A DNA stretch of 41,800 bases. Origin: Synergistales bacterium 54_24 (GTDB lineage Bacteria; Synergistota; Synergistia; Synergistales; Thermosynergistaceae). This document shows, one piece after another, positions 561 through 38,322 of this stretch. How positions within the stretch are numbered: the stretch's first letter is position 1; each line of letters opens with the position of its first letter. A model generated the notes under the pieces. The model was given only the letters and a program-made list of their open reading frames with translations. It searched no databases and was not told the DNA's origin. Made by a program: the position numbers and the translations under genes. The DNA lies in assembly GCA_001508935.1 (NCBI GenBank), contig LGFQ01000004.1, positions 1-41,800 on the forward strand. The letters are read 5' to 3'.

Positions 561-760
561 TCCCTCGTCCCTCCCTTTGAAGCTATGTTCATAGTTGTGA
601 ACAGTTTGCTAAGATTATATGCTACAATTCTAAAATGATATGGGCGCTTCCATATTCGCAGCGGGTTTTAAACTTTTTCGCATAAATATTATAGGCTTTG
701 CCGAAGCCTCAGATAAAGGTTAAAATTTTTTCAAGAGTGAAGATCCGAGGAGGGTCTAAT

Positions 761-2158
761 ATGAATGATCCCTTTAATGCGATCTTGCGAGCTCTGCCCT
801 CGATGGACAGTTTATTGGCCAAGGGATGGATTAGCCTTTTTGAAGACGAATTAGGCAGGAGCGCCGTCAAGTCGATAGCCTCTGAGGCGATGGACGAGTT
901 GCGCAAGGAGATAATCGCCGGACAAAGGATGGAAGTGGAAGAAAATGCCATAGAAGAAGAAATAAGGCGACGCCTCGAGGCGCGCGTCAAGATGAAGCTA
1001 AAACCTCTGGTAAACGCCACCGGTGTCGTCGTGCACACTAACTTGGGAAGATCCCCTCTGGCGCAGGAAGCGATAGAAACAGTGGCTAGCATTGCCCGCT
1101 CTTACAGCAACTTGGAATACGACTTAGCCGGGGGAAGCCGCGGCCACCGTGGTGATCACGTGGAATGGTTGTTAGAGCGAATAACAGGTGCTGAGTCAGC
1201 GCTCGTAGTAAACAACAACGCAGGCGCCGTTCTATTAGCGCTTTCCGCCCTGGCCAAGGGGAGAGAGGTCATAGTTTCAAGGGGAGAACTGGTTGAAATC
1301 GGGGGGTCCTTCAGAATACCTGAGATATTGGAGCTTTCCGGCGCAAAATTGGTGGAGGTAGGGACGACAAACCGCACCTACCCGAAGGATTACCAGTCGG
1401 CCATAACAGACCAGACTGCTCTCATTCTCAAGGTTCATCCCTCAAACTATCGCATCGTGGGCTTTACCTCCTCCGTTCCGCGGAGCACCCTCACAGACTT
1501 GGCTCGCCAAAGTGGGCTATACCTCGTCGAGGACCTCGGAAGCGGCGTGCTCGAAGACCTGACAGAAAGCGGCTTGCCGGGAGAACCAACGGTGAGCGAA
1601 TGCATAAAAGACGGCGTAGATCTCGTTACCTTCTCCGGGGATAAGCTCCTCGGAGGGCCCCAGGCGGGTTGTATAGTGGGGAGAAGAGATCTCATAGATC
1701 GCATGAGATCCTACCCTCTTTTGCGGGCATTGCGCACAGATAAAATGACGCTGGCAGCTTTGGAAGCGACGCTTTCGCTCCACATGCGAGGAGACTGGTC
1801 CTCTATCCCCGCGCTCGCCATGGTGACCGCCTCAGCCGAAGATCTCCTCTCTCGCGCCGAGGCGCTCGCTGAAAAGCTCAAAAAGGAACTACCGTCATGG
1901 TGCGTTTCTGTGAAGAAAGTTTACGACGTCGTCGGAGGGGGAGCCTTTCCGGAGCACCCGCTTGAGGGATACGCCGTGGCGGTGGCGTCACCACATATGA
2001 GTGAAGAAGAGCTTTGTGATTTCTTGAGAAGCTTCAAACCTCCCATCATATGCAACGTCTCAGGAAAGTCCTTGCTGTTTCATGTGAGGACGCTATTGTT
2101 AGGCGACGAAGACCATATAGAAAGGGCCCTCGTTGAAGCTTGGGGTGGTGAAAGGTGA
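761..2158 (+). CDS. selA: L-seryl-tRNA(Sec) selenium transferase
   Basis: ORF 698..2158. Start chosen at ATG 761 after the GGAGG-like RBS (cgaggagggtctaatATG). SelA signatures NATGVVVHTNLGRSPL, YSNLEYDLAGGSRGHR, VTFSGDKLLGGPQAG. Confidence 0.96.
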   Translation: MNDPFNAILRALPSMDSLLAKGWISLFEDELGRSAVKSIASEAMDELRKEIIAGQRMEVEENAIEEEIRRRLEARVKMKLKPLVNATGVVVHTNLGRSPLAQEAIETVASIARSYSNLEYDLAGGSRGHRGDHVEWLLERITGAESALVVNNNAGAVLLALSALAKGREVIVSRGELVEIGGSFRIPEILELSGAKLVEVGTTNRTYPKDYQSAITDQTALILKVHPSNYRIVGFTSSVPRSTLTDLARQSGLYLVEDLGSGVLEDLTESGLPGEPTVSECIKDGVDLVTFSGDKLLGGPQAGCIVGRRDLIDRMRSYPLLRALRTDKMTLAALEATLSLHMRGDWSSIPALAMVTASAEDLLSRAEALAEKLKKELPSWCVSVKKVYDVVGGGAFPEHPLEGYAVAVASPHMSEEELCDFLRSFKPPIICNVSGKSLLFHVRTLLLGDEDHIERALVEAWGGER

Positions 2159-4089
2159 ACAACGCGATCGTCGAAGTGCCGGTGGTGCTGGGCACGGCTG
2201 GCCATGTGGACCACGGAAAGACGGAGTTGGTGCGCGCCCTTACCGGCGTCGACACCGACCGACTCTCTGAGGAGAAGCGAAGGGGCATTACCATAGAGCT
2301 TGGCTTCGCTCCATTGATCTTGCCCGATGGCCGCATCGTGAGCATAGTCGATGTCCCGGGACATGAGCGCTTCATACGTCAGATGACTGCTGGAGCTGCA
2401 GGTATCGACGCCGTCATCTTTGTGGTGGCTGCAGACGAAGGTGTGATGCAGCAAACCAGAGAACACCTGGAGATATTGGAGTTGCTTGGCATCAGCGACG
2501 GAATCATCGTCCTCACCAAGGCTGACCTTGTGGATGAGGACATGCTCTCTCTGGCCAAGACGGAGGTAGAGGAGCTCGTCAAGGGCACATTCCTCGAGGG
2601 GAAATCGATTGTAGCCGTCTCCGCGGTAAAAGGGTTACACCTCGACGAATTGGTAAGAGAAATAGAAACGCTTGTGAACCGCATTCCTCCGAGGAGCGCC
2701 GGCGGATCGCTCTTCATGCCGATAGATAGAGCTTTTCCGATGTCTGGCTTTGGCACCATCGTAACCGGTACCATCTATGAGGGCGCTGTCTCCCTCGGCG
2801 ACGTTGTAGAATTAATGCCTAAAGGGATACGCGCAAAAGTGCGATCGCTACAGGTTCATGGCAAATCCGTCCAACGGGCGCAAGCTGGTCAACGCGCGGC
2901 AATAAACCTCGCCGGCATTCCGATCGCCGAAGTAAATAGGGGAGATGTGCTCTGCGGCGCAGAACTCTTGCGCTCGACCAAATGTGTCAATGTCTCTCTC
3001 GAATTGCTCGCCTCCGCCCCGATCAGCCTTAGGCACTGGCAACGGGTGAGGCTTCATGTCGGTACATCGGACCTCTTGGCCCGCGTTTCCCTTCTCTCTA
3101 AGGTCGAAATACATCCTGGAGACGAAACCTTCGCTCAGCTCCTCTTAGAGGACGACGTGGCGGTTAAAGCGGGGCAGAGGTTCATCGTCCGATCTTATAG
3201 CCCTTTGAGGACCATCGGAGGCGGCGTAATCCTATTTCCCTATGGCAAGAGGCCGAAGGGGAAGGCCGGCCGTTTCAAGACATTACAATTTCTTGAGCAT
3301 TTGAAGGCAGACACCAGTATAGAAGGGCGAGTTTTAGCCATCATCGAGTCTCTCAAATCTGTACACCTTGAGGAGTTGGCCATCCTAACGCAGGAAGGTA
3401 GAAGGGAAATAACCTCCGTCGGTAAAGAGCTGCAGAGGAAGGGCAAGTTGTATTTCTTCGAAGAAGAGGGAGGTTTCTTTTTGTCTGCCTCGGCCCTTGG
3501 CCAGCTCGAAGACGAACTTAAACGGACTTTAGAAGACTTTCACAGGAAAAATCCACACCTTCGCGGCGTTTCGCTCGAAGAAACAGCGGAGAGACTCTCT
3601 TTCAAGTTAGGCGCAAATCTGTTGCGAGCCATTGTTAAAGAAATGCAAAGCAGAGGAGAGATTGCAATTGGGCCCGACGACAAGCTGCGGCTCGCTAAAT
3701 TTTCCCCTTCTGCCGACGAGAATCTCCAGAAGATATGCGACCGTATCATCAGCCTCTGCCTTGAGCGCGGCTTTCAACTGCCGACGGTTGGCGAACTCGC
3801 TGAGGAAGTGGGCGCTAAAGGAGAAAAACTGACGAAAGCGTTGGAAATGCTGAAAGAAGGAGGAGCATTGCAGTTCGTCGGCGGAGAATTCGTCCTTGTG
3901 CGCCAAATTGAGGAAGAGTTCGTGAAGCTCCTTCTGGGGTTGGAGGAGATAACGATTTCGTCGGTAAGAGATTCGGCTAATGTAAGCAGAAAGTATCTTC
4001 TTCCTTTATTAGAATATATGGATGCAAAAGGGATAACACGTCGAGCTGGCAATAAACGCATATTGCTAAAGAACCAAAAATTGACTTGA
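2155..4089 (+). CDS. selB: Selenocysteine-specific translation elongation factor SelB
   Basis: GTP-binding motifs GHVDHGKTELVRALTG, DVPGHERFIRQM, TKADLV and C-terminal winged-helix region; GTG start overlaps the selA stop. Confidence 0.96.
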   Translation: MNNAIVEVPVVLGTAGHVDHGKTELVRALTGVDTDRLSEEKRRGITIELGFAPLILPDGRIVSIVDVPGHERFIRQMTAGAAGIDAVIFVVAADEGVMQQTREHLEILELLGISDGIIVLTKADLVDEDMLSLAKTEVEELVKGTFLEGKSIVAVSAVKGLHLDELVREIETLVNRIPPRSAGGSLFMPIDRAFPMSGFGTIVTGTIYEGAVSLGDVVELMPKGIRAKVRSLQVHGKSVQRAQAGQRAAINLAGIPIAEVNRGDVLCGAELLRSTKCVNVSLELLASAPISLRHWQRVRLHVGTSDLLARVSLLSKVEIHPGDETFAQLLLEDDVAVKAGQRFIVRSYSPLRTIGGGVILFPYGKRPKGKAGRFKTLQFLEHLKADTSIEGRVLAIIESLKSVHLEELAILTQEGRREITSVGKELQRKGKLYFFEEEGGFFLSASALGQLEDELKRTLEDFHRKNPHLRGVSLEETAERLSFKLGANLLRAIVKEMQSRGEIAIGPDDKLRLAKFSPSADENLQKICDRIISLCLERGFQLPTVGELAEEVGAKGEKLTKALEMLKEGGALQFVGGEFVLVRQIEEEFVKLLLGLEEITISSVRDSANVSRKYLLPLLEYMDAKGITRRAGNKRILLKNQKLT

Positions 4090-14746: not shown

Positions 14747-15947
14747 TCGCCGCGTGCTCTTCGGCATATCGGGTGGGATATCAGCGTATAAGGCCCCTCA
14801 GATTGTGAGGGCCCTTAGGAGTTATAATTGCGAAGTAGAGATAATCTTAACTGAAGCGGCAGAGAAGTTCGTCGCTCCCCTGGTCCTGTCAACGTTGGCA
14901 GAAAGGAAGGTTTGGCGCCAATCGGACTTCTTGAATCCGGAGGAGGGATGGAAAATTCCTCACATCAAGCTGGCCGATTGGGCTGAAGTGGCCGTTGTTG
15001 CGCCCGCCACTGCCAACGTATTGCGCCGCGCCGCTTTGGGCGAAGCCGAAACCCTCCTCGGCGCTGCACTGTTGGCCACGCGTGCCCCCGTTCTCATTTT
15101 TCCGGCGATGAACGTTCATATGTGGGAACATGAAGCCACTCAGGAACATGTCGGGCGGTTGCGAGAGCTCGGATATTTCGTCTTTGAGCCGGAGGAGGGG
15201 GAGCTGGCCTGTGGATATGAGGGCAAAGGGCGATTGCCCAGCGTCGATGTAATCTTAGAAGAGATATGGCGATCCCTTTGCCCCAAAAAGGATTTGAAAG
15301 GCAAACACGTCCTCGTGACCGCTGGTCCTACATGGGAGTTCATCGATCCCGTGCGGTTTCTGAGCAACCCGAGCAGCGGCAAGATGGGGTACGCCATGGC
15401 CAGGGCCGCTTGGTATAGGGGGGCGGAGGTTGTGCTCGTCTCTGGCCCGGTCGGTTTGCCTCAGCCTCACTGGGCACACCTTGTTTCGGCTACCTCTGCT
15501 GAGGAAATGGGCCGAGCAGTGATGGAACATCTCTCGTGGGCAGATGTGATTGTAAAGGCGGCAGCAGTAAGTGATTTTAGAGCAGAAGAGCGAAAATCTC
15601 AAAAAATAAAGCGCCAGGGGAGAGATAAGCTCGACTTGCAACTCGTGCAAAATCCTGATATCGCCGCTGCAGTTGGCCTGAACAAGAGGCAGGATCAACT
15701 GCTGATCGGTTTTGCTGCGGAGAGCGAGGACCTTCTGGAGAATGCGCGGTCCAAGATGGCCCGCAAGGGCCTTGATATGATCGTCGTAAACGACATCACG
15801 GCGCCTGGAGCTGGCTTCGCTTCGGACACCAATGTCGTCAAAGTCTTGGATCCAAAAGGCGCGATAGCGGAGCTTAAGGGGAGCAAGGAAGCCGTAGCAG
15901 ACGCCATTTGGGAAATAGCGACAACGCGACTTCCTTCCGCGCGATGA
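14724..15947 (+). CDS. coaBC: Bifunctional phosphopantothenoylcysteine decarboxylase / phosphopantothenate-cysteine ligase
   Basis: [62 protein letters not shown] 14724 chosen over TTG 14679 because of the GGGAGG upstream. Confidence 0.94.
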
Positions 15948-17737
15948 GTTTATTTGTGGATGTGGCCCTTCCGGGTCTCTGGTGGAACGACCTTACCTAT
16001 CGCACAGAGCGCCCGATAGATCCCGGCTGTAGAGTCGTAGTGCCCTTGAGAAAGACAGAGCGAGTCGGCTTCGTGGTATCGATGGCCGATCGTCCTCCCG
16101 AGGGCGAAGCGCGCGAAATCGAGGCCGTTTTGGATAACGTGCCACCGTTGGGTCCCGAGCTATGGGAATTGGCCAAGTGGGCTTCGACTTCGTACCTGTG
16201 CAGCTTGGGAAGAGTGCTCAAACTAATGTCGCCGGCAGCGCTCATGAGGGGAGAGCCTGTGAGCGCATTCATCCAGGTGGCGCCAAAGGCAACCCGCAGC
16301 AAATTGGCATTTTGCTATGTCCCGAGGGATGCCGTCAGATGGGGGCAGTACGTCGAACTTTTAGAAAAAACCGAGGGCAACGCTCTGGTTTTATTCCCAG
16401 AACAAGTGCAGGCTCGCCTCTTCTGGAAGGCCTTGCCGGCAGGGTTGAAAGAAAAGGGATTGCTTTGGCCCGCTGGAGGCGGGAAGAAGGCGTGGGAAGC
16501 GTGGCTTTCTGTCCGCCTAAGAGAGGTTTCATTGGTCGTGGGATCTCCGGCGGCAACCTTCGCTCCCTTTCCCTCTCTCGACCTGATCGCGATTGACGAC
16601 GAATGCAGCGGTGCCCATACGTGGCAGATGGCGCCATACTTCAACTCGAGGCATATCGTCGCCAAAAGGGCGGATCTCACAGGGGCGTCTTTTGTCTTGG
16701 GCGGGCGCATGCCGTCCAGCGCGGTCTACGCAAGGCATTCCCCACCACCTCCAAAGTTTTCAAAGCGAAAGGTTCGCCTCGTTTCAATTCACAGAGCCCA
16801 TCTGTTCGATCATCCGGGTATTGCTGACGCATTGCCGATAAATCAGTTGCTCATCCAACGCACACTGGAAGAGGTAAGGGCAAAGCGGACGGTTCTATGG
16901 GTTTTAGACCGCAAGGGGTATGCCATGGAGGCGTTTTGCGAGGAGTGCGGGTGGTCTTTCTTTTGTCCCAAATGCGGTGCTGCTATGAGGCTGAGCGGCG
17001 AGGGGGAGCAACTGCGTTGCCCGTTGTGCGGCGAGAAGCTCGCTCTGCCCGGTGCTTGCCCGCGATGCAGGAGTTCGCTGATTTTGGGGCGCCGACCGGG
17101 ATTGGATATCCTCTTCCATACGGCAAATGCCTTACTGGGCGAAGACCACCCTACATTTTTGTGGCATAAAGAGCTACAGGGGAGGCGCAAGCTGACCGAG
17201 ATGCTTTCAGCCCTTAAGGATGGAGGTCTTGTAGTGGGATCGAGATTGGTCCTCTCCCTGTTAGATATACACCAGGTTTCTTTGATCGGTTGGATGAATG
17301 CAGATGCTGAGGCCTCCAGGCCCTCTTATGACGCTAAATTTCAAGCCTTCAGGATGATTTGGGATTCATGTTGGCGCGGAATCGAGCCCGATGAGAGGGA
17401 AATTATAGTCCAAAGCCGCATTCCAGGTAGGGGATGGCAGAGAGGACTCGTCAGGGGGTGGAAGGTCTTTTGGGATGACGAACTCAAGGAGCGGCGAGAA
17501 CTTTCTCTGCCGCCATATGTGTATCTGGTCGAGATATCTCCCCCCCGCGGTCGTAAGAAAGAGTTAGAGGTGGCCTTGCAAAAGGCGGCTTTAACGGTAT
17601 ATGATCCTGAGGCCGACAAGGACATCTTATGGGTCAAGGTTGAGCGGCTGTGCCATTTGCAGGAGGTTTTGCGGCCATTTATGCATATCGGTCAGTCGGG
17701 CAATGGTTTCCCAGAGATCGAGATATGGCGGGAGTGA
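15944..17737 (+). CDS. priA: PriA-like primosomal protein N' lacking recognisable helicase motifs
   Basis: N-terminal VDVALPGLWWNDLTYRTERPIDPGCRVVVPL; zinc cluster CEECGWSFFCPKC...LRCPLCGEK...CPRC; C-terminal SLPPYVYLVEI; position coaBC-priA. Start uncertain: ORF opens at 15908, ATG 15944 overlaps the coaBC stop. Confidence 0.85.
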   Translation: MSLFVDVALPGLWWNDLTYRTERPIDPGCRVVVPLRKTERVGFVVSMADRPPEGEAREIEAVLDNVPPLGPELWELAKWASTSYLCSLGRVLKLMSPAALMRGEPVSAFIQVAPKATRSKLAFCYVPRDAVRWGQYVELLEKTEGNALVLFPEQVQARLFWKALPAGLKEKGLLWPAGGGKKAWEAWLSVRLREVSLVVGSPAATFAPFPSLDLIAIDDECSGAHTWQMAPYFNSRHIVAKRADLTGASFVLGGRMPSSAVYARHSPPPPKFSKRKVRLVSIHRAHLFDHPGIADALPINQLLIQRTLEEVRAKRTVLWVLDRKGYAMEAFCEECGWSFFCPKCGAAMRLSGEGEQLRCPLCGEKLALPGACPRCRSSLILGRRPGLDILFHTANALLGEDHPTFLWHKELQGRRKLTEMLSALKDGGLVVGSRLVLSLLDIHQVSLIGWMNADAEASRPSYDAKFQAFRMIWDSCWRGIEPDEREIIVQSRIPGRGWQRGLVRGWKVFWDDELKERRELSLPPYVYLVEISPPRGRKKELEVALQKAALTVYDPEADKDILWVKVERLCHLQEVLRPFMHIGQSGNGFPEIEIWRE

Positions 17738-20468: not shown

Positions 20469-20938
20469 GCGCTCGAGATCTTCTTTGCGTAAATCACCAA
20501 ATCGTCTCCGAGCTGATAAAAATCCTCAATTCGCCCCTTTTCCTCAAAACCGCAAGACTCATAAAATGACCTCTGTCTTGCGTAACTGGGCTTACCTGAA
20601 GTTTCAATCCTTAGGATCGCCTGTCCTGCCTGCCCAACGGCTTCTCGTTCCGCTTGCGCCATCAACAACTTCCCGATTCCCCTACCTTGCAACTCCGGAT
20701 CCACAGCTATCCAATATACATCCCAGGCGTATTTCGTCATAGGGGTCATCCCAAAGATGACGAATCCGCTGACCTTTTGGTCGTCGAAGAAGAGGCGCAA
20801 GCGGTATTCTTTCCCTTGAGAAGCAGCCCAATCGCGTAGAACCTCTTCGAGAACGTCAACTTCGGCTTCCGAGAAGGCATTTGTCCGATGAGCTATGTCG
20901 ATACACTGTGCTACTAAATCCTTTGTGTGGCTTGACAT
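20465..20938 (-). CDS. GNAT family N-acetyltransferase
   Basis: DVYWIAVDPELQGRGIGKLLMAQAEREA is the acetyl-CoA binding motif; SFYESCGFEEKGRIEDFYQLGDD. Confidence 0.9.
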   Translation of the reverse strand: MSSHTKDLVAQCIDIAHRTNAFSEAEVDVLEEVLRDWAASQGKEYRLRLFFDDQKVSGFVIFGMTPMTKYAWDVYWIAVDPELQGRGIGKLLMAQAEREAVGQAGQAILRIETSGKPSYARQRSFYESCGFEEKGRIEDFYQLGDDLVIYAKKISSA

Positions 20939-21947
20939 ATCTAAGCCTCCCGTTCATGGCCATCTCGACAAGTCTCGCTACCATAGACCGATAGTCATAC
21001 CCCCTATGTTCGCTCTGTTTTGTAAAGCCGCTGTCAACGTTGATATCCGGGTTTGGATTGACCTCAAGGATATAGAGTCCATCCGCTCCTTCCCGCAGAT
21101 CGATCCTGAAATACCCTTGACACCCCATGACGGAGCCGGCTCTCCTGCACAGTTGTTCAATTTCCCTGCGACGCTGCGGCGATATCCCTTTTTCGATGAC
21201 CGTTACGATCTTTTGGTAATCGATGCTTTCAGAGCGCCATTTGGAATCGAAGCCGCAGTATGTGCTGGTGCCGAGGTCTTTCCTGTACTCCACGCGCGCT
21301 GCCGCCACGAACTCAAAGGGTTGCACCCCCATAAGAGCAGCGCTGTATTCAAGTCCGTTGAGATATTCTTCCACAATGACGCCATGGGGGAAGAGCCGTA
21401 GCCTCTCTTTCAATAGATGCCAAAGATCGACTTTGTCGTAGACGATGGAGTCGCCATCTATGCCGACGCTGCCATCTTCTAAGCGCGGCTTCAAGAAGAG
21501 AGGAAACCTCAACCTCGAGACTTTGTGCAAATCCTTTTCAGAGGTGATACAGACTCCAGGTGCTATCGGAAGCCCGGCCCTGCGGAGCATCTCACGAGCG
21601 ATGGCCTTGTCGAGGCAGTTTGCCAGTGCACGAGATCCATTGCCTGTAAATGGCATACCCAGGGATTCGAGCAAAGCCGCGAACCGCGCCTCCATGAAAG
21701 GCGAATTCGAAAACCCCTCAAAGAGGTTAAAAACACACGCTGGCTCATACTGCAAGATTTTCATTATCAGGCTTTCGTATGAGGAAAAATCTTCTCTTGT
21801 GATATCTACAGGGATGGCCTCATAACCCGACTTCTCTAAGGCTTCCATGACCGAGTTGCGACATCGCAAAACGTCCAGAACGTCTTCACTATCGGTCTCT
21901 TCGCGCCCCACAACGACGACTATGCGACGATCATCAATACTCGGCAT
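20856..21947 (-). CDS. ATP-grasp ligase, D-Ala-D-Ala ligase-like (second of tandem pair)
   Basis: NLFEGFSNSPFMEARFAALLESLGMPFTGNGSRALANCLDKAIARE...FPLFLKPRLEDGSVGI...VIVEEYLNGLEYSAALMG...FRIDLREGADGLYILEVNPNPDI. Confidence 0.85.
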   Translation of the reverse strand: MPSIDDRRIVVVVGREETDSEDVLDVLRCRNSVMEALEKSGYEAIPVDITREDFSSYESLIMKILQYEPACVFNLFEGFSNSPFMEARFAALLESLGMPFTGNGSRALANCLDKAIAREMLRRAGLPIAPGVCITSEKDLHKVSRLRFPLFLKPRLEDGSVGIDGDSIVYDKVDLWHLLKERLRLFPHGVIVEEYLNGLEYSAALMGVQPFEFVAAARVEYRKDLGTSTYCGFDSKWRSESIDYQKIVTVIEKGISPQRRREIEQLCRRAGSVMGCQGYFRIDLREGADGLYILEVNPNPDINVDSGFTKQSEHRGYDYRSMVARLVEMAMNGRLRYVKPHKGFSSTVYRHSSSDKCLLGSRS

Positions 21948-23028
21948 AGGGAAGCTTCACCTCGACTAAATATGGCCAAGAGAGACCGTATCGAGCGAAA
22001 GCCTCGCTCAGAAGACCTCGCACAAGCTCTTCATACCTACCACCGCTGAGCCTATAGAGAATCGGAAGATCGCTGTAGGCCTCAGAGAGCCCCGGCAAAG
22101 GATTTACGTCTATGATCTTCGGAACGCCCCACCTGTCGAGCTTGAAATCTATGCGCGCGATGTCCTTGAGCTCTAAGAATTGAAAGCACCTTACGGCATC
22201 CCTTGAGACCGATAGGCGAATCTCTTCACCCAAGGCCTCCGGAGGCGCATAACGGACCTTCTGCTTCCAATTTCTCTTATGCTCAAGCGTGTAGAAGCTG
22301 TGGCCATCGTCGGTGGGTTCCGGGTTAACTGCCATCAGACCTATGACTTGCGGCGGCCTGTTGCCGAGCACGCCAACGGTGATCTCAATTCCTGGAAGGT
22401 ATTCCTCGACGATGGCCGGCTGCCTATAGCGTTCCCAAATTCTCCTAACCCTTTCGGCGAGCTCGGCGTGAGTCCTCACTATGGAATCAGCAAATACGCC
22501 TTTGGACGACCCTTCCCAACGCGGTTTTACTATATATTCCCTGTGATGCGAGAAAATCTGCCCTTGCGTCCAGAGGTCACCCTCCTCAGAGAACATAAAG
22601 AGCGTCGGCACCGGCAGCCCGGCAGATACAAGCATATGATGCGTGAGCCACTTGTCTAACGCGAGGGCGCAAGCTGCGGAGTCTGAGCCTGCATAAGGAA
22701 TTCCAAGGCTTTCAAGGATTGCTGGCACTTGCGATTCGCGCCCTCTCATAACTCCCAAGCCTTCAGCGATATTTACGATGAAGTCTGGCTTGGTTTGTCT
22801 GAGGGCGTCAAAGAAGAAGTCGTTCTGCTCCAGCAGAACGACTTTAAATCCAAATGCCTCTATTGTGTCTTTAAGTGACCGAACTGTCTCTATGCAATCA
22901 TACTCTTCATAGCGATCATCAGGTTCATCGCCAGCGGCACAGCGCCGCAGATTATAAGTGATGCCTATGACCCTAACTTCCGCTTTTTCATTTGCGCGCG
23001 ATGGTCCAGGATCCTCCTTTTCCATCAT
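21934..23028 (-). CDS. ATP-grasp ligase, D-Ala-D-Ala ligase-like (first of tandem pair)
   Basis: FIVNIAEGLGVMRGRESQVPAILESLGIPYAGSDSAACALALDKWLTHHM...YIVKPRWEGSSKGV...IVEEYLPGIEITVGVLG...ARIDFKLDRWGVPKIIDVNPLPGLSE. Start may be slightly downstream. Confidence 0.85.
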   Translation of the reverse strand: MMEKEDPGPSRANEKAEVRVIGITYNLRRCAAGDEPDDRYEEYDCIETVRSLKDTIEAFGFKVVLLEQNDFFFDALRQTKPDFIVNIAEGLGVMRGRESQVPAILESLGIPYAGSDSAACALALDKWLTHHMLVSAGLPVPTLFMFSEEGDLWTQGQIFSHHREYIVKPRWEGSSKGVFADSIVRTHAELAERVRRIWERYRQPAIVEEYLPGIEITVGVLGNRPPQVIGLMAVNPEPTDDGHSFYTLEHKRNWKQKVRYAPPEALGEEIRLSVSRDAVRCFQFLELKDIARIDFKLDRWGVPKIIDVNPLPGLSEAYSDLPILYRLSGGRYEELVRGLLSEAFARYGLSWPYLVEVKLPYAEY

Positions 23029-36591: not shown

Positions 36592-38322
36592 GTGGAAAGT
36601 AGCCTTGTATGGGGCCAAATCGCCATAGTAATGATCACAGCGATCGTCTGTCTTTTGATTCACAAAAGCCTGAAGAGAGTTCTTTTGCCTGACCAAAGGG
36701 ATTATGTGCGCGACCTTACGCTGACCGGGAGCATAGCCCTGCTCGCAATAGCGATAGGCTCCAGGTCTGCTCAGGTCGTGGTAGCCTTCGCCATTCTGGC
36801 CTTAGTGGTCGGCATAGCGCGCAGATATTACCCTCATCGGTTTTGGTCTCTTGCATATATACTTATCGGCCTGTTTTTTTCCGCTTTCGGCCCCAGGATA
36901 TCCTTCATGAGCCTGCCTCGAGGGGAGTATTATTATTTCTCGCCGTGGGCTTCGATAATGGTAACCACAATTTGGATGGCGCTCTTTCCCCTTCTACTTC
37001 AAGAACTGGACCAAACTCCGGGCCTCATGGGCCACTTGTTAGCGGTCGTATGGCTGTTGATGTCTATAGTGACGTTCGTACTTCCGCAGCACACACCGGA
37101 CGCCGTCTGGCTTTCAGCGGCGGGATTGGCCTTTACGGCCGTGTTTTGGAGCCGTCATGGACATCCCTTCCGCCGCTTAGGGGAACCGCTTGCCGGAATG
37201 TGGGGGGTCCTCATAGCTGGTACATCGATCCTGGGGGTGAGCAAAGGGGTGACGTTCACCGTGCTGTTATTCTTGCCTTTGGGGCTTTTCGCCCTTCCTA
37301 TTTTAGAAACGTCGCTCTATGTGGCAAGCAGAGCCTTTGCCGTGGATTTAGCTCGCTTTCCGTCGCTGTATCGCCGCTTTATATCGATGGGCATCGATCA
37401 TCCCAAAGCGATAAGGCTGGTCGCTCTGGTGTGCATGTGCCTCGGCGGTGCCGTCGCTTCTTCCGAGTTGCCATTAGGCTGGGCCTCGCGCCCTCTTACG
37501 GTGGCCTTTCTGAGCGCCGGCGTAGCAGTTGTATTGGGCAGCACCAGAAAGCTCTTGCCTAAAAGTGATATGCGATGGCCCGTATTATGGGGTATACGGG
37601 TGGATAATGTATCGCTCGCCTATGTCCTCTCTAAAGTCTGCGGATGGATCGAATCTGGAGGCTTTGCACGCTATGTGGTTACGCCCGACGCGTTGGCTGC
37701 TTATAGAAGCCGCACCGATGCGAACTATCGGCGAATCGTCAGGGCCGCTGATATGGTTTTGCCCGACGGAGTAGGGTTGATCTGGGGTTTGAGATGCCTC
37801 GGATACAAAGTGCAGGAACGGATAGCTGGCGTAGAGTTTATGGATCAACTTTGCAGAGTCGCCGCAGCGCAAGGATGGCCTGTGTATTTGTTGGGCGGTA
37901 AACCTGGCGTGGCCGAAGAGGCGGCTTGTAGGTTATCCGCAAGATATCCGGGCCTTGTCGTAGCCGGTGTTCATGACGGTTACTTTGATGAGACTCAAGA
38001 TGCCTCAATATGCGAAGAGATCCGAAATTCCGGCGCGCGGTTGCTATTTGTCGGCATGGGTTCACCGAAACAGGAAATCTGGATCGATCGGAACCTGAAG
38101 GGTTTGAACGGCATGGTCAGCGTGGGCGTGGGGGGGAGTTTCGACGTGCTGTCGGGACGCCTGAAGAGGGCCCCTGTTTTTTGGCAAAGGATGGGGCTCG
38201 AGTGGTTATACAGGACCGTTCAAGAGCCGTGGAGGATAAAACGCGTCAGTCGCTTGCCCATCTTCGCAATATTAGTCATAATGACGCGCCTGGGCGTAGA
38301 CAGGTGGAGGGAGGAACAGTGA
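36592..38322 (+). CDS. Fusion: polytopic WecA/TagO-like (apparently degenerate) membrane domain plus WecG/TagA/CpsF glycosyltransferase
   Basis: C-terminal half VVTPDALAAYR...ADMVLPDGVGLIWG...ERIAGVEFMDQL...VYLLGGKPGVAEEAA...FVGMGSPKQEIWI...GVGGSFDVLSGRLKRAPVFWQRMGLEWLYRTVQEPWR is a clear GT26. N-terminal about 320 aa is multi-TM and aligns by eye with TagO. Confidence 0.9.
   Translation: MESSLVWGQIAIVMITAIVCLLIHKSLKRVLLPDQRDYVRDLTLTGSIALLAIAIGSRSAQVVVAFAILALVVGIARRYYPHRFWSLAYILIGLFFSAFGPRISFMSLPRGEYYYFSPWASIMVTTIWMALFPLLLQELDQTPGLMGHLLAVVWLLMSIVTFVLPQHTPDAVWLSAAGLAFTAVFWSRHGHPFRRLGEPLAGMWGVLIAGTSILGVSKGVTFTVLLFLPLGLFALPILETSLYVASRAFAVDLARFPSLYRRFISMGIDHPKAIRLVALVCMCLGGAVASSELPLGWASRPLTVAFLSAGVAVVLGSTRKLLPKSDMRWPVLWGIRVDNVSLAYVLSKVCGWIESGGFARYVVTPDALAAYRSRTDANYRRIVRAADMVLPDGVGLIWGLRCLGYKVQERIAGVEFMDQLCRVAAAQGWPVYLLGGKPGVAEEAACRLSARYPGLVVAGVHDGYFDETQDASICEEIRNSGARLLFVGMGSPKQEIWIDRNLKGLNGMVSVGVGGSFDVLSGRLKRAPVFWQRMGLEWLYRTVQEPWRIKRVSRLPIFAILVIMTRLGVDRWREEQ

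Follow-up and report, generated by a model that had tools for sequence, protein, structure and literature searches.

The gene at positions 36592-38322 (+ strand) of the window, the whole 41,800-nucleotide stretch that was analysed, encodes a fusion of 576 amino acids. Its N-terminal domain is genuinely homologous to the polyprenyl-phosphate HexNAc-1-P transferases, the superfamily of MraY, WecA and TagO. Judging from its substituted motifs, it looks unable to do the classical reaction. The C-terminal domain is a TagA/WecG (GT26) glycosyltransferase. Taken as a whole, the protein is probably a pseudo-TagO, lipid-presenting scaffold joined to an active-type TagA; this is the best explanation of the sequences and structure models. 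In a search of the open-access literature, neither a pseudoenzyme of this superfamily nor such an architecture was found.

The features of the fusion gene are:

36592..38322 (+): fusion gene, putative pseudo-TagO/WecA membrane domain plus TagA/WecG (GT26) glycosyltransferase; ORF, 576 aa, GTG start
36592..37548 (+): PNPT-fold domain, residues 1-319, 10 predicted TM helices and an 11th; from AlphaFold, Foldseek, hhalign and PF00953 on sister-group orthologues
36820..36825 (+): R77-R78, position of the catalytic Asp pair DD (GILDD to GIARR), by alignment
37000..37023 (+): loop C, QELDQTPG (137-144), position of N-x-x-D-G-x-(D/N)-G, by alignment
37180..37185 (+): G197-E198, position of the Mg2+-binding Asp (MraY D265), by alignment
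37306..37308 (+): E239, position of the PIFDT Asp (PIFDT to PILET, 236-240); acid kept in 69/72 fusions
37363..37374 (+): SLYR (258-261), position of the HIHH motif of loop E (HIHHRL to SLYRRF, 258-263), by alignment
37477..37548 (+): TM11, residues 296-319 (model helix 289-312, residue +7); in the predicted topology, required for a cytoplasmic GT domain
37573..38319 (+): GT26 catalytic domain with C-terminal appendage, residues 328-576, by alignment to TagA 7mpk
37681..37683 (+): T364, equivalent to TagA T37 in the 7mpk alignment, invariant in 72/72 fusions
37765..37767 (+): D392, equivalent to TagA D65 (catalytic base) in the 7mpk alignment, invariant in 72/72 fusions
38212..38235 (+): R541 and R548, equivalent to the TagA appendage residues R214 and R221 in the 7mpk alignment, invariant in 72/72 fusions

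Homology and fold of the two domains

The C-terminal half had been described in the initial annotation as an intact GT26 enzyme, and the searches bear this out. PF03808 matched residues 386-551 of the 576-aa fusion above the Pfam cut-off (E=2.8e-67), and the domain aligned over its full length with residues 3-240 of Thermoanaerobacter italicus TagA (7mpk, E=1.8e-79). For TagA, D65 has been proposed as the base, ManNAc is positioned by T37, and arginines of the appendage reach into the active site (PMC6493773); their equivalents T364, D392, R541 and R548 are all conserved. The TarA/TagA equivalog model NF041710 gave the fusion 172.8 bits, below its 350-bit cut-off, which makes it a superfamily member whose donor and acceptor are not assured by the model.

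For the N-terminal 330 residues of the window protein, no significant Pfam or NCBIfam match was found. The gathering cut-off of PF00953, missed by the window protein, was passed by two sister-group orthologues of the same fusion (L149 and L150). Profiles were compared by hhalign, one built from 41 orthologues of the N-domain and the other from 24 WecA-type proteins, mostly resident Synergistota WecA. They aligned with a score of 53 over 203 columns, with all motifs in register. Reversed WecA profiles scored 14-15 and ten block-shuffled profiles 28-34. The score against MraY was 24, within the control range, and direct descent from MraY was rejected at this control-level score. The family likeness and the motif register had also been read by eye in the initial annotation, and hhalign arrived at the same register independently.

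Structure prediction could have shown an unrelated fold; it gave that of MraY and DPAGT1. The AlphaFold model of the N-domain, made from the 41-orthologue profile, had a pLDDT of 86 and a pTM of 0.85. In a Foldseek search of the PDB, ranks 1-31 were all MraY or DPAGT1 (probability 1.00, TM 0.48-0.69 by query length), and the next match had a probability of 0.08. The viral structure library gave no match at E < 0.001. A PDB sequence search with the N-domain alone gave weak WD40 matches over ~43 residues, which were taken as chance. Topology was derived from the helix pattern and the known topology of WecA and MraY; in the model, the 11th helix would return the chain to the cytoplasm.

Residues at the catalytic positions

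Residue conservation was counted over 72 fusions, with TagO and WecA as controls. The catalytic residues of MraY are D117, D118, D265 and H324, with Mg2+ bound by D265 (PMC4790310, PMC6606608). At the DD position, none of the 72 fusions has DD and most relatives have Q/E followed by K/R, whereas all TagO and WecA controls have DD. In loop C, NLIDGLDGL has become QELDQTPGL (137-145), with the Asn replaced by Q137 and the second Asp/Asn by P143. D196 of MraY is part of the uridine pocket, and the uridine-pocket Asp is Pro in most fusions. GDTGS has become GEPLA (197-201); the Mg-binding Asp position holds Glu in 35/72 and Asp in 3/72, the rest being mostly other residues. The three fusions that keep the GD aspartate are Acetomicrobium-type sequences. 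HxH is found in 0/72; S258 takes the place of its first His, and the second is replaced by an invariant Tyr (Y260, 72/72).

The N-domain therefore seems unable to do the classical reaction, since the DD pair, the Asn, the second loop-C Asp, the Mg-binding Asp and HxH are lost. Catalytic Asp or His residues conserved elsewhere in the domain were looked for in the alignment of the 72 fusions and are absent. The initial annotation had held that the family positions are substituted; this is right for the listed motifs, but not for every position. All 72 fusions keep G144 and the first loop-C Asp, D140, which corresponds by register to MraY D193, and position 239 is acidic in all but three. MraY itself has an invariant Glu in the segment that probably matches the PIFDT position. 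Further polar residues in the N-domain loops are likewise invariant or nearly so, namely D41, FWSR 185-188, SKG 217-219, Y260 and H270.

Distribution, ancestry and wall-polymer genes

The same fusion was sought as orthologues, as the initial annotation had suggested, and it is present across Synergistota. It was found in 174/183 genomes of the class and in 112/113 of the good-quality ones, nearly always as one match. The orthologues in the class are full-length and nearly all lack internal stops. PF03808 was present in 175/188 Synergistota genomes, almost always once, and all named matches in a scan with a conserved N-domain stretch were Synergistota. A phylum search also revealed the fusion in f11, a family outside the window's order. 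The f11 N-domains are matched directly by PF00953 (over the curated cut-off in L149 and L150), and their tblastn matches include Firmicute TagO-type genes, with E down to 1e-17. A partial sequence at a contig end in G187 (family f12) looks like a third fusion lineage.

The window-type N-domain profile matched the f11 domains with E from 1e-27 to 7e-21 and TagO proteins with E from 1e-13 to 4e-5. The best TagO reached 1.4e-13, compared to 1.4e-3 for the resident WecA; shuffled controls were at or above 0.8. Maximum-likelihood analysis placed the pseudo-domains of the two groups in one clade (100/99), apart from MraY, WecA and TagO. Judged by these comparisons, the N-domain comes from a source more like TagO than like the resident WecA, and the domain is therefore no recent copy of WecA. 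Descent from the resident WecA was rejected on the same E-values and the separate clade.

The N-domain is under strong purifying selection, with a dN/dS of ~0.05. Between the window and a same-genus relative, dN/dS was 0.057 for the N-domain and 0.070 for the GT domain; in the same genome pair, it was 0.075 for intact WecA and 0.115 for MraY. Two other pairs gave 0.048-0.051 for the N-domain. In Acetomicrobium-type pairs, the values were 0.21-0.22 or rested on almost no changes, so that constraint is less sharply measured there. A decaying pseudogene is ruled out by the dN/dS values and the retention across the phylum.

The gene order ribH-serS-fusion recurs widely, and a CBS protein gene and V-ATPase genes often come next. 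Divergent from the fusion gene in the window lies a gene for an LmeA-like phospholipid-binding protein (PF11209, 35664-36500, -), a neighbour recognised in the nearest families only. Other genes of the window include selA adjoining selB, which is selenocysteine machinery (698-4089, +); a protein resembling PriA, with 3'BD and zinc-ribbon domains, no Pfam helicase domain match and possibly a degenerate motor (15908-17737, +); and two overlapping tandem D-Ala-D-Ala-ligase-like ATP-grasp genes of 363 and 364 aa (20856-23028, -).

Elsewhere in its genome, the window organism encodes an intact MraY and an intact WecA, the latter adjoining a UDP-GlcNAc 2-epimerase; the separate intact enzyme considered in the initial annotation is hence there. 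Most relatives have two PF00953 proteins, and nearly every genome that has the fusion also encodes an intact WecA. A third PF00953 protein beside MraY and WecA occurs in a few genomes (L053, L054 and L055, in G118, G117 and G119). Among 33 good-quality relatives, MnaA was detected in 33, CsaB in 33 (a few below the curated cut-off), the LCP ligase in 32 and SLH domains in 27. The assembly that contains the window (93% complete) yielded no LCP; the same-genus genome G172 has one. The f11 genomes have LCP (5/5 counting f12) and CsaB-like proteins below the cut-off. The SLH protein of the window genome begins with an N-terminal SLH domain, followed by an apparent coiled coil and a beta-barrel ending in Phe, a layout that appears OmpM-like by eye.

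TagO/WecA, MnaA, TagA, CsaB and LCP occurring together in the relatives' genomes make up the gene set of pyruvylated secondary cell wall polymers (SCWP). From Paenibacillus alvei, MnaA, TagA and CsaB made a pyruvylated ManNAc-GlcNAc lipid precursor in vitro (PMC6030368). A pyruvylated wall polymer in Synergistota is a reasonable inference from the co-occurrence of MnaA, CsaB, LCP and SLH. In addition, MnaA, CsaB, a single LCP and SLH proteins (e.g. L178:1796-3346) suggest that the outer membrane may be tethered by SLH domains. The initial annotation had named wall teichoic acid and ECA synthesis as the settings in which WecA/TagO acts just before TagA; the genes found here resemble a pathway for wall teichoic acid linkage units or SCWP rather than for ECA. 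An ECA pathway is the less probable one, as PF03808 is single-copy and the CsaB/LCP/SLH set suits a wall polymer better.

Possible roles of the N-terminal domain and known systems

For the scaffold reading, we infer the catalytic death, the lipid holding, the identity of acceptor and donor, and the final polymer along the following lines. In an ancestor shared by at least two deep Synergistota groups, a TagO-type GlcNAc-1-P transferase would have been stripped of the residues that handle metal and nucleotide, while its fusion to TagA, which acts next in the pathway, persisted. The dead domain would fix the GT26 domain to the inner membrane on the cytoplasmic side. Its old lipid groove probably still takes the undecaprenyl chain of Und-PP-GlcNAc, which would be made by the separate intact WecA, and presents this substrate to TagA. 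Acceptance of the undecaprenyl lipid is our best guess because the old fold and the invariant loop residues are kept. The AlphaFold model of the full-length fusion (pTM 0.57) does not fix the orientation of the two domains, so that a shared lipid path between them is a conjecture. TagA would then add ManNAc from UDP-ManNAc, supplied by MnaA, and the product would be Und-PP-GlcNAc-ManNAc. The same disaccharide, GlcNAc-ManNAc, is found in wall teichoic acid linkage units and in pyruvylated SCWPs. TagA is proposed to become active once membrane contact orders its C-terminal appendage (PMC6493773), and this proposed need gives a rationale for a permanent membrane domain.

The dead domain might instead be a mere membrane anchor, with no lipid-specific role and replaceable by any TM bundle. 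TagA is proposed to require membrane association (PMC6493773), and with the modelled 11 TM helices the GT would lie on the cytoplasmic side. We nevertheless consider an anchor alone rather unlikely: the conservation of polar loop residues (D41, D140, FWSR 185-188, SKG 217-219, Y260, H270) is unexpected for an anchor, as is such a low dN/dS, and the GT domain keeps a C-terminal membrane appendage of its own. Pairing of the dead domain with the intact WecA, coupling the first two steps so that Und-PP-GlcNAc is passed straight to TagA, is less probable still. It would agree with the dimer seen in MraY crystals, which is consistent with the oligomeric state of that enzyme (PMC6606608), and with the near-constant presence of an intact WecA in genomes that have the fusion; however, the N-domain is nearer to TagO than to the resident WecA, and wecA is found at a distance from the fusion gene, about 46 kb away in G172.

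E239, which is nearly invariant, and the invariant D41, D140, Y260 and H270 might in principle serve a different chemistry. An enzyme of altered chemistry acting through D140, E239, Y260 and H270, to which the GD aspartate of the three Acetomicrobium-type sequences might also point, is very improbable given that nearly all fusions lack DD, the Mg-binding Asp and the His motif at once, that the uridine-pocket Asp is mostly Pro, and that a separate intact WecA is present. A merely compositional likeness to WecA, to which the window protein's lack of a significant Pfam/NCBIfam match and the control-level score against MraY might point, is refuted by the in-register profile match, the exclusive structural match, PF00953 on the orthologues and the TagO-like intermediates.

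The scaffold reading agrees with the pathway-internal pseudoenzyme fusion proposed in the initial annotation: the PNPT fold, the lost catalytic set, the separate intact WecA and the sharing of the fusion by orthologues all fit it. Throughout Synergistota, an enzyme of the pathway has apparently been converted into a membrane-embedded partner of the enzyme that acts after it. A bolder version, which we hold to be doubtful, is that the first pathway enzyme became a non-catalytic lipid-presenting module of the second and may dimerise with the living WecA, as a two-step membrane unit for a polymer that ties the outer membrane to the wall via SLH/OmpM-type proteins.

The putative pseudo-TagO domain is ancient, occurs throughout the phylum and is under strong constraint. 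It is a natural test case for the non-catalytic roles of the PNPT fold, such as lipid binding or dimerisation, and for the way in which GT26 enzymes encounter a lipid acceptor. Together with MnaA, CsaB, LCP and SLH, it suggests a testable answer to how the outer membrane is attached to the Synergistota cell wall.

Compared to TagO/WecA (PF00953), the N-domain shares the fold, the TM order, the motif register, the first Asp and the Gly of the NxxDGxDG loop, and a periplasmic hairpin region as in TagO. It differs in the absence of the DD pair, the Asn, the second loop-C Asp, the Mg-binding Asp and HxH, in the attached GT26 domain, and in that the window protein is missed by the Pfam model. Compared to TagA (T. 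italicus 7mpk/5wb4; P. alvei), the likeness extends over the whole GT26 domain, including the equivalents of T37, D65, R214 and R221 and the C-terminal appendage, whereas no N-terminal membrane domain is present in the known structures or in the P. alvei enzyme. The pyruvylated SCWP pathway of P. alvei and Bacillus anthracis (TagO-MnaA-TagA-CsaB-LCP) is matched in Synergistota by its gene set and SLH proteins. In contrast to that pathway, Synergistota are diderm, their genes are dispersed, the polymer is a predicted one, and TagA carries an apparently dead TagO domain.
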